Source of the DNA: Sandaracinus amylolyticus
Lineage (GTDB): Bacteria; Myxococcota_A; Polyangia; Polyangiales; Sandaracinaceae
Assembly: GCF_000737325.1 (NCBI RefSeq)
Contig: NZ_CP011125.1
Span: 1,364,001 to 1,428,000, forward strand
Direction: 5' to 3'
DNA length: 64,000 nt
The notes under the pieces are model-generated. The model saw nothing but the letters and a program-made list of their open reading frames with translations. It made no database searches and was not told the origin of the DNA. Shown piece by piece: positions 10,031 to 14,976 of the stretch. The stretch's first letter is position 1, and each line of letters starts with the position of its first letter. The position numbers and the translations under genes were made by a program.

Positions 10031-10515
10031 CCCCCACGCCCACGACCGCGTCGACGCCCACGATCACGTCGGCGATCTGCGCCGCGCGCGGCGTTGGGAA
10101 CGTGGTCGTGGTCGTGGTCGTGAGCGTGGTCGTGGTCGGCCTCTTCGCGGGGAACGGCCGCCCACGCCCACGACCACGTCGACGCCCACGATCACGTCGG
10201 CGATCTGCGCCGCGCGCGTCGTTGCGAACGTGGACGTGAGCGTGGTCGTGGTCGGCCTCTTCGCGGGGAACGGCCGCCCACGACCACGACCACGCCGACG
10301 CCCACGATCACGTCGGCGATCTGCGCCGCGCGCGTCGTTGCGAACGTGGACGTGGTCGTGGTCGTGAGCGTGGTCGTGGTCGTGAGCGTGGTCGTGGTCG
10401 GCCTCTTCGCGGGGAACGGCCGCCCACGCCCACGACCACGTCGACGCCCACGATCACGTCGGCGATCTGCGCCGCGCGCGGCGTTGGGGAACGTGGTCGT
10501 GGTCGGCTCTTCGGT
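10031..10515. repeat. Four-copy tandem repeat with internal inverted arms
   Basis: A marker gatcacgtcggcgatctgc occurs at 10062, 10190, 10306 and 10452, so the unit length varies (128, 116 and 146 bp). Each unit has a conserved half of about 60 bp and a variable half made of GTGGTC/GTGAGC steps that differ in number. The arms cgtggtcgtgg (for example 10125-10135) and ccacgaccacg (10168-10178) are complementary, and a ggcc...ggcc core lies between them, so each unit can form a hairpin. It fills the space between the convergent 3-prime ends at 9952 and 10546. Variable step number suggests slipped-strand instability. I see no credible gene in it. Confidence 0.85.
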
Positions 10516-13035: not shown

Positions 13036-13593
13036 TCACTCGGTGATCGCGCGGATGACGCGGCAGGGGTTCCCTGCCGCGAGCACGCCCTCGGGCACGT
13101 CGCGCGTGACGATGCTGCCCGCGCCGATCACCGCGCGCGACCCGATCCGCACGCCGGGCAGGATGATCGCGCCGCCGCCGACCCACACGTCGGCGCCGAT
13201 CTCGATCGGCTTGCCGTACTCCTTCACGCGCCGCTCCGCGGCGTTCAGCGGGTGCAGCGGCGTGAGGATCTGGACCGCGGGGCCGAACATCGTGAAGTCC
13301 CCGATCGTCACGCGGCAGACGTCGAGCACCACGCAATTGAAATTGAAGTAAACGCGCTCGCCGAGCTCGATGTTCGCCCCGTAGTCGCAGTAGAACGGCG
13401 GCTGCATCCACACGCTGTCGCCGCCGCGGCCGAACAGATCGCGCAGGATCGCGCGGCGCGCGTCGACCTCGCGCTCGCGGGTGGCGTTGAGGGCCTGACA
13501 GAGATCGCGCGCGCGCTCGCGCGTCGCGACGAGCTCGGGGTCGAGCGCGTCGTAGCGCTCACCGGCCAGCATCTTCTCGCGCTCGGACGTCAT
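13036..13593 (-). CDS. maa: Maltose/galactoside O-acetyltransferase-like (left-handed beta helix)
   Basis: This 185-residue protein has the usual length of the Maa/LacA/NodL group. An N-terminal helical region (MTSEREKMLAGERYDALD) is followed by hexapeptide repeats of a left-handed beta helix (IGDFTMFGP, IGADVWVGGGAIILPGVRIG, IGAGSIVTRDVPEGVLAAGNP). The catalytic histidine is expected in TPLHPLNA. It acetylates a sugar hydroxyl using acetyl-CoA in the cytoplasm. The ATG at 13593 fits the family N-terminus; the frame stays open to 14028 only because it runs through the 42-bp repeat array, giving an arginine-rich non-homologous extension. It is convergent with treZ (6-bp gap). Confidence 0.9.
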   Translation of the reverse strand: MTSEREKMLAGERYDALDPELVATRERARDLCQALNATREREVDARRAILRDLFGRGGDSVWMQPPFYCDYGANIELGERVYFNFNCVVLDVCRVTIGDFTMFGPAVQILTPLHPLNAAERRVKEYGKPIEIGADVWVGGGAIILPGVRIGSRAVIGAGSIVTRDVPEGVLAAGNPCRVIRAITE

Positions 13594-13683
13594 CCGAGAC
13601 CGGCATCGGCCCGACGCCCGCGACCACAAGCGCGTCGATCGTGCGCCACGCCTCGCCGCATCGGGTCGCCGGCGCGGCGCGAG

Positions 13684-14029
13684 GGTCGAGACCATCGCCG
13701 CGCTGCGTCGACGGCGCGGCGCGAGGGTCGCGACCGCGCGAGCGCGACGTCGACGGCGATGATCGAGGGTCGAGACCTCGGGCGCGCTGCGTCGACCGCG
13801 CAGCGCGAGGGTCGCGACCGCGCGACGGCGACGTCGATCGCGGCGACCGAGGGTCGAGACCGTCGGGGTGCGGCGTCGACGGCGCAGCGCGACGGTGCCG
13901 ACCCTCACGCGCCTCGTTCGACGGCGCCGGGCGAGGGTGATCACCGTCCCGACGCGCCGTCGATCGAGGGCCGAGACGGTGAAGACCCTCCGCGCCCGCC
14001 GTCGACGGCGTAGCGGGAGGGTCTTCACC
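13684..14029. repeat. 42-bp periodic palindrome array, nine sites
   Basis: Ten-base sites of the form GGTNNNNACC start at 13684, 13726, 13768, 13810, 13852, 13894, 13936, 13978 and 14020, exactly 42 bp apart. Two are ggtcgcgacc and one is ggtgatcacc, which are perfect palindromes; the others have symmetric outer halves. A second motif, GTCGAC or a one-base variant, lies halfway between them at 13707, 13749, 13791, 13833, 13875, 13917, 13959 and 14001, also 42 bp apart. Motif centres therefore alternate about every 21 bp, or two helical turns. The array sits between two minus-strand genes, upstream of the Maa-type gene. A protein-binding array or structured RNA are both possible. Confidence 0.9.
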
Positions 14030-14053
14030 CCGAAAACGTGGGAAAAACCGCGC

Positions 14054-14851
14054 TCAGACCTCGGGGATGGGGTCGCTCGGCGGCGGGCCTGCGGGCTCGG
14101 GCGCGGCGGGCCCGGGCGGGCCTGCGGGCCGCGTCGCGGGCTCCGCGCGCTGCTGCGACGCGCGGAACGCGTCGATCGGCGCGAGCGCCTTGCGCAGCCG
14201 CGGGTGGTTCTCGGGGTTGCTCGGCGGGTGCTCGGCGAACAGCGCGAACACGTACTCCTGGACGGCCACCTGCAGCGCGCGCAGCGGCTCGCGCACGCCG
14301 ACCGTCGCGGCGTCGGCGGCCTCGGTGATCCGGAGCGCCTCTCCGTACGACGCGTGCGCGCGACGGATGAACGCGAGGTACGGCGCGCCGACGAGGCGAT
14401 CGAGCTCGGCCCCGAGCCCGTCGGCGTCGATCTGCGCGAGCAGGCGGTCGGCGTGCGCCCACTGGCTCGTGTACGTGAGCTGGGTGAAGGCGAGCCCGTC
14501 GGGGAAGACGCGCTCGAGCATCGCGCGAGCGCGCGTCGCGCGCGCGTCGTCGGCGGGCGTGCCGGTGATGAGCGTGATCGACTCGAGCGCCCAATTCAGC
14601 GCTCGCCACGACGCATCGGCCACGGCGTCGAAGGCGCGGCGATCGGGATCGCCGATCTTCACGCGCGCGGTCCACGCGTCGCGCAGCGCGATGACCGACG
14701 CGCGCAGCGCGCGTGCGCTGGCGCGGACGCGTGAGTCGCGCGACGCGTCGGTCGGGACCGCGGCGAGGACCGCGACGCCCAGCGAGTACGCGCCGGGCAC
14801 GTCGGTGGCCGGAGCGCGGGTGTAGAGGTTCGGATCGAATTCGGTGGTCAC
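14054..14851 (-). CDS. Hypothetical helical protein
   Basis: I do not recognise this 265-residue protein. It is predicted to be mostly alpha-helical, with alternating alanine/arginine-rich helices over residues 30-220 (for example ASWRALNWALESITL and LFAEHPPSNPENHPRLRKAL), and ends in a proline- and glycine-rich tail of about 30 residues. No signal peptide or membrane helix is evident, so it is probably cytoplasmic. The GTG at 14851 is preferred because a GGGAGG-type site lies 8 bases upstream; a TTG at 14857 is too close to that site. The 42-bp palindrome array follows its stop codon. Confidence 0.75.
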   Translation of the reverse strand: MTTEFDPNLYTRAPATDVPGAYSLGVAVLAAVPTDASRDSRVRASARALRASVIALRDAWTARVKIGDPDRRAFDAVADASWRALNWALESITLITGTPADDARATRARAMLERVFPDGLAFTQLTYTSQWAHADRLLAQIDADGLGAELDRLVGAPYLAFIRRAHASYGEALRITEAADAATVGVREPLRALQVAVQEYVFALFAEHPPSNPENHPRLRKALAPIDAFRASQQRAEPATRPAGPPGPAAPEPAGPPPSDPIPEV

Positions 14852-14976
14852 GAGCAATGCCTCCCTCGCGCGGGAGCATCGCTGGCCGGAGCGCGCGCGA
14901 CCATGTCCGCAACGTCGGGGCAGACGCGCGCGCGATGGCGCGACTACGTTCGAGCGTCTCGACCGGAGGAAACGAG

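Follow-up and report, generated by a model that had tools for sequence, protein, structure and literature searches.

The DNA between a maltose acetyltransferase-type gene and a gene of a protein family that we call P3, in the chromosome of Sandaracinus amylolyticus, carries a tandem array of two alternating palindromic sites, which is one member of an apparently undescribed class of 41-43 bp repeat arrays in predatory soil bacteria. The property that this class keeps is its spacing, not its sequence. The array was found in a stretch of 64,000 nucleotides (the window) from a host genome of 10,327,335 bp in one contig, and its features are collected in Table 1. In our preferred reading, to which we give a probability of about 0.5, the array is a putative double-stranded-DNA binding platform phased by the helix and belongs to a class that is maintained in Polyangia with the genes of P3 and of a second family, P4. 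The window array itself is real and is conserved. It can be regarded as a variant of phased DNA-site arrays, and there is a fair chance that it represents a new class of element. Among open-access papers, no relevant report of such arrays in myxobacteria was found.

Table 1. Features of the array and of its two flanking genes (window positions).
Feature	Positions	Strand	Details
Maltose/galactoside O-acetyltransferase-type gene (Maa-type; Mac + hexapeptide)	13036..13593	-	gene start lies some 90 bp past the array
Degenerate left end of the array	13653..13683	.	where the tandem-repeat call starts
Array, nine A sites (GGTN4ACC)	13684..14029	.	starts 13684, 13726, 13768, 13810, 13852, 13894, 13936, 13978, 14020
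B sites (GTCGAC, GTCGAT or TTCGAC)	13707..14006	.	centres 13709.5 + 42n, halfway between A sites
Last unit, a long and almost perfect inverted repeat (GGTGAAGACCCTCC ... GGAGGGTCTTCACC)	13976..14031	.	centred on GTCGAC at 14001
P3-family gene (267 aa; all-helical with an acidic/proline-rich tail)	14054..14857	-	gene class carrying such arrays

A preliminary description of this DNA had reported nine A sites repeated at an exact 42 bp period with zero indels, and this was confirmed for the whole series (13684 + 42n up to 14020). The window contains 25 GGTN4ACC sequences, nine of which form this one chain, with no second chain of even two; in 200 shuffled windows, the longest in-phase chain had a length of 2. 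The GTCGAC-like motifs said to lie midway were found as GTCGA[C/T] at 13707, 13749, 13791, 13833, 13875, 13959 and 14001, the eighth B position (about 13917) being occupied by the TTCGAC variant, and the distance between A and B dyad centres, given earlier as about 21 bp, is exactly 21.0 bp. The eight full units have a mean divergence of 34% without any indel, and columns 14-19 and 31-42 of the unit are variable. The array occupies the interval between the stop of the minus-strand P3 gene (14054) and the start of the acetyltransferase-type gene (13593). Within the host genome the array is essentially unique in sequence, and further genomic copies were rejected, all other matches being GC-rich background. 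A second tandem hairpin array, with units of 116/146 bp rich in CGTGGTCGTGG and its complement, lies elsewhere in the window (10033-10505) between convergent genes.

The symmetry of the A sites had been taken as selected, on the basis of perfect palindromes. These do occur (GGTCGCGACC twice and GGTGATCACC once), but at only three of the nine sites, and the two arms of an A site pair no better with each other than with the arms of different sites (p 0.79), so that the A sites do not carry this claim. For the dyads centred on GTCGAC, own arms pair better than arms of different sites when arms of 26 bases are compared (p 0.006). Recent duplication, which had been discounted, is visible at the left end of the array: units there show 6-8 differences when one unit is skipped, against 11-13 between neighbours, an 84-bp superperiod from which we conclude that local duplication also contributed to the window array. 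The same superperiod could be produced by a function-free minisatellite, in which slippage and template-switch quasi-palindrome repair, with no selection acting, generate inverted tandem repeats and make them more perfect; template switching alone can yield paired arm changes like those around GTCGAC, and several hairpin arrays of other periods are present in the host genome. Such an origin is nevertheless improbable in view of the zero indels at 34% divergence and, as described below, of a fixed 41-43 bp period that holds for unrelated sequences and in different families of the Polyangia, of a strong linkage to two gene families and of the conservation of orthologous arrays. Nor is the window array an isolated minisatellite, being one of many arrays with a period of 41-43 bp.

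About 21 tandem arrays with a period of 41-43 bp were found in 2.46 Mb of the host genome. If only arrays of 100 bp or longer are counted in this DNA, periods of 41, 42 and 43 bp are represented by 10, 7 and 4 arrays, respectively (a few of these 21 overlap coding sequence), and periods of 37, 38, 40, 44, 46 and 47 bp by none; many of the remaining periods are multiples of three, as coding repeats would give. The 41-43 bp arrays are mostly intergenic and their sequences are unrelated to one another. They often have a common plan, in which two alternating two-fold-symmetric sites lie about 20.5-21 bp, or two helical turns, apart. Using consensus units and mechanically chosen centres, we counted ten arrays whose two dyads each scored above shuffled sequences (p up to 0.05); the centres are 20-21 bp apart in eight of them, for an expected proportion of 2/13 (binomial p about 1e-5); two clear palindromes are absent from some arrays of the class. 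Several arrays have an exact core, GGGTCNGACCC, in common, of which the genome contains 52 copies (0 for the reversed control); nearly all of the occurrences listed are inside arrays, and all 40 spacings measured between such sites are 40-43 bp, with a mean of 41.7 and an sd of 0.8. The longest array by motif, at C1:2052626-2053343 of the host contig, has 18 GGGTCGGACCC sites spaced 40-43 bp. Arrays of period 45, 56, 69 and 43 at C1:610361, 746090, 765197 and 797142 have CTCAACCACGGTCGG or its complement in common and form a separate dispersed repeat family, and an 84-bp hairpin repeat with five copies of 97% identity lies directly 3' of a gene end in another locus (L092:350-760).

Since 42 bp correspond to 14 codons, the array might encode a repetitive extension of the Maa protein or of another frame, and the Maa frame is in fact open across it (330 codons). 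However, variation is equal across the three codon phases (0.73, 0.69 and 0.82 bits), the units of many sister arrays measure 41 or 43 bp and Maa homology begins only at 13593, all of which makes this explanation extremely improbable; a coding role of the window array was rejected for any frame because of the lack of a codon-phase signal.

The arrays are linked to the P3 and P4 genes. An array lies within 450 bp of 38 of the 46 P3/P4 loci in Sandaracinaceae, as against 4 of 73 control loci, with a Fisher p of about 1e-18 that is too small because the loci are partly related. Some P loci show no array by the repeat finder, and a few of the 38 arrays were detected only at a doubled period of 82-85 bp. 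For nine known P genes in the surveyed host DNA, the repeat finder gave an array in eight cases, and the ninth (a P3 gene at 3072243; L207) has upstream of it, at C1:3071870-3071945, a minimal X-Y-X array consisting of a perfect 20-bp palindrome, GATCGCTAACGTTAGCGATC, flanked by two copies of AACAGATCTCTGTT. In other families of Polyangia, 11 of the 28 loci with P4 homologues have an array, always of period 41-43. In orthologues from a second Sandaracinus, the motif is retained while its copy number differs, and conservation of orthologous arrays is seen in two pairs of loci (L150/L151 and L156/L158). Array similarity follows protein similarity for P4 (Mantel r 0.32, a value reached by 0 of 2000 permutations) and, weakly, for P3 (p 0.05). 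The earlier emphasis had been on the Maa-type gene; the comparison shows that the gene on the other side, then called hypothetical, is the associated one, and the Maa-type gene is probably an unrelated neighbour.

Thirty-three of the 38 P-linked arrays in Sandaracinaceae are upstream of their gene and five are downstream, the window array being among the latter and hence in the less common arrangement. Its last unit, the long inverted repeat, lies 23-24 bp past the stop codon of the P3 gene and is a possible hairpin or terminator. An expansion of transcription terminators or of 3'-end hairpin buffers between genes would agree with this position and with that of several orphan arrays (those without a P gene) and some P-linked ones, which lie between convergent genes. 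It is improbable as well, given the 33 arrays located upstream, the absence of a T-tract after the window hairpin and the fact that it leaves the period and the half-unit dyads unexplained.

The families themselves have no Pfam, NCBIfam or PADLOC assignment and contain no recognised DNA-binding domain, and the majority of their members are acidic. A P4 protein encoded beside another array has 310 aa. The AlphaFold2 model of P3, built with six sequences, is all-helical (pLDDT 77, pTM 0.48), and fold searches with P3 returned generic helix-bundle matches, none of them confident. Profile comparison detected no homology between P3 and P4 (probability 2.8%), so a mode of binding shared by the two would be an assumption. 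The two families have a PIPTPGPIGDGPF-type C-terminal tail in common though their bodies are not detectably homologous; one P3 member (L191) ends in the P4-type PIPTPGPIGDGPF tail, as do L155 and L158. There are 13 P3 matches in the host genome and 12 P4 matches in a relative. Among 193 Polyangia genomes, P4 homologues occur in 33 and P3 homologues in 37, and both occur together in 21 genomes for 6.3 expected, an excess to which shared ancestry contributes. A profile search of genome contigs with a P3 sub-alignment retrieved one Sandaracinaceae MAG only, and the viral contigs searched gave no relatives. A lead to DUF6261 was abandoned, being one weak match on which the literature gave nothing useful. 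A gene for a HerA/FtsK/TrwB-like ATPase is located 3' of P4 in several loci (L150:2434-3930, and also L151, L156-L159, L161, L171 and L175), which suggests that array, P4 and DNA translocase gene form an operon; since this gene often follows P4, a role in DNA transactions is plausible.

The preliminary description had left open whether the array acts as DNA or as a structured RNA. If it were an RNA array, its units would be transcribed and processed to stem-loop RNAs of about 42 nt bound by the P protein, in a manner similar to the dual-repeat or stem-loop arrays of TIGR-Tas or to the RNA antitoxins of type III systems. The TIGR-Tas layout (PMC12045711) is similar in that the array adjoins a single gene on its upstream or downstream side, in a sequence constant within a locus and different between loci and in the two alternating pseudo-symmetric repeats per unit; moreover, the P protein is all-helical. 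RNA structure prediction, one of the checks suggested earlier, gave the two strands of the window array much better folds than shuffled sequences (z -5.7 and -6.2), but any palindromic DNA does likewise. Other results speak against RNA. Over 52 dyad sites read on the gene strand, G-T mismatches (148) are as numerous as A-C mismatches (155). Covariation, which had also been proposed as a check, is absent between the arms of these 52 sites, own-unit arms matching no better than other-unit arms (z -1.0), and symmetry is maintained through the dyad centres, at positions that would be an unconstrained loop in RNA. No Rfam family was matched at the gathering cut-off (best score 20.7 bits, 40 being required), and membership in a known structured RNA was rejected for want of a covariance-model match above that score. 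In addition, units are near-identical in some arrays and hence have no unique spacers, the Nop and ToxN families are absent among the protein matches, and free RNA would not be expected to keep to a period of close to four DNA turns. The equality of mismatches, the lack of arm covariation, the central symmetry and the lack of an Rfam match together favour double-stranded, two-fold-symmetric DNA sites over RNA hairpins, and we hold an RNA array to be unlikely. The DNA-level options of the preliminary description (dimers bound to one helix face at an operator or a chromosome-organising site) are for their part supported by the wider class, through the 41-43 bp period shared by arrays of unrelated sequence and the recurrence, in other arrays, of dyads half a unit (about 20.5-21 bp) apart.

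Phased centromere, iteron and multi-operator arrays, of which plasmid ParR/parC centromeres and replication iterons are examples, are the known systems that the window array would most resemble in its working, its sites being candidate binding sites. The likeness lies in the tandem whole-turn spacing, the use of one DNA face and the adjoining gene, and whole-turn phasing with little tolerance is found here as well (spacings of 40-43 bp, with about 20.5-21 bp between dyads). In contrast to those arrays, the motif differs from locus to locus at a fixed period, two different palindromes alternate, the arrays are chromosomal with many per genome, and neither a partition gene nor a known DNA-binding fold was found. 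Type III toxin-antitoxin systems, such as ToxIN, CptIN and TenpIN, also have short direct repeats beside one gene, but the present arrays are often 60-440 bp away and sometimes downstream, the protein is all-helical and there is no RNA signature; membership was rejected, as no family of ToxN/CptN/TenpN type was found in Pfam, NCBIfam or PADLOC. REP/BIME elements are dispersed palindromes with the same sequence in many genome copies and, like the arrays, occur as clustered inverted repeats, in many cases at 3' ends; here there is no single dispersed sequence, that of the window array being essentially unique, and this assignment was rejected too. The closest layout is that of TIGR-Tas, with units of about 36 nt made of unique 9-nt spacers and conserved repeats of 8-12 nt, and with a Nop protein (PMC12045711). 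In both cases an array is placed up- or downstream of one gene, each unit contains two alternating pseudo-symmetric repeats, and sequences are conserved within, not between, loci (PMC12045711). The arrays described here differ by units of 41-43 instead of 36 nt, by a symmetry that is DNA-like and not RNA-like, and by having as a rule no 9-nt hypervariable spacers, the segments between palindromes being common to the units in most arrays. Pfam scans at E 1 gave no Nop match; the fold search gave no confident match of any kind, and the lack of a Nop fold in its listing carries no weight. TIGR-Tas membership, considered for the layout, was dropped because unit length and spacers do not fit. The comparison carries a warning that TIGR-like or toxin-antitoxin-like layouts can occur on DNA without an RNA signature.

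Some orphan arrays have motifs in common with P-linked arrays at 17-18 of 18 bp, as in the pairs 8147942 and 3330104 (GATGGGTCCGACCCATC), L155 and 3262338 (GAATCTCGGAGATTC), and 8118075 and 1560152; none of 150 shuffled comparisons reached 17 of 18 bp. For some orphan arrays, there was no matching P-linked array among those examined. An array between 3' ends cannot be a promoter operator of its neighbours and, since several are found between convergent 3' ends, promoter operators are not a general explanation.

The period, the half-unit dyads, the linkage, the co-inheritance, the motif sharing and the DNA-like symmetry are computed properties of these loci, and we infer that protein binding is the cause of the phasing. 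In the putative binding platform, alternating two-fold-symmetric sites about two turns apart would bring all dyads to one side of the helix, where a dimeric protein could load side by side and build a short filament on one DNA face. Joint inheritance of gene and array makes the adjacent P protein a natural first choice as the binder, and this role would fall to it or to a partner. Each array would carry a motif of its own that is passed on together with the P gene, and the orphan arrays that reuse P-linked motifs would be candidate trans sites. The output would be autoregulation and/or chromosome architecture, and not ordinary promoter control.

More tentatively, and with some doubt on our part, the P3 and P4 genes and their arrays could represent a new class of genetic element, with diversifying helical proteins that each have a private phased palindromic array and sometimes orphan targets, some P4 genes lying beside a HerA-like DNA-translocase gene; they might serve Polyangia as a locus-specific system for chromosome organisation, segregation or defence. 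A fixed period combined with a freely changing sequence suggests that selection acts on geometry. If P3 and P4 read the arrays, they would offer a large untouched set of pairs of protein and DNA site for studying how DNA-recognition specificity diversifies, as well as a means to study the organisation of large bacterial chromosomes.
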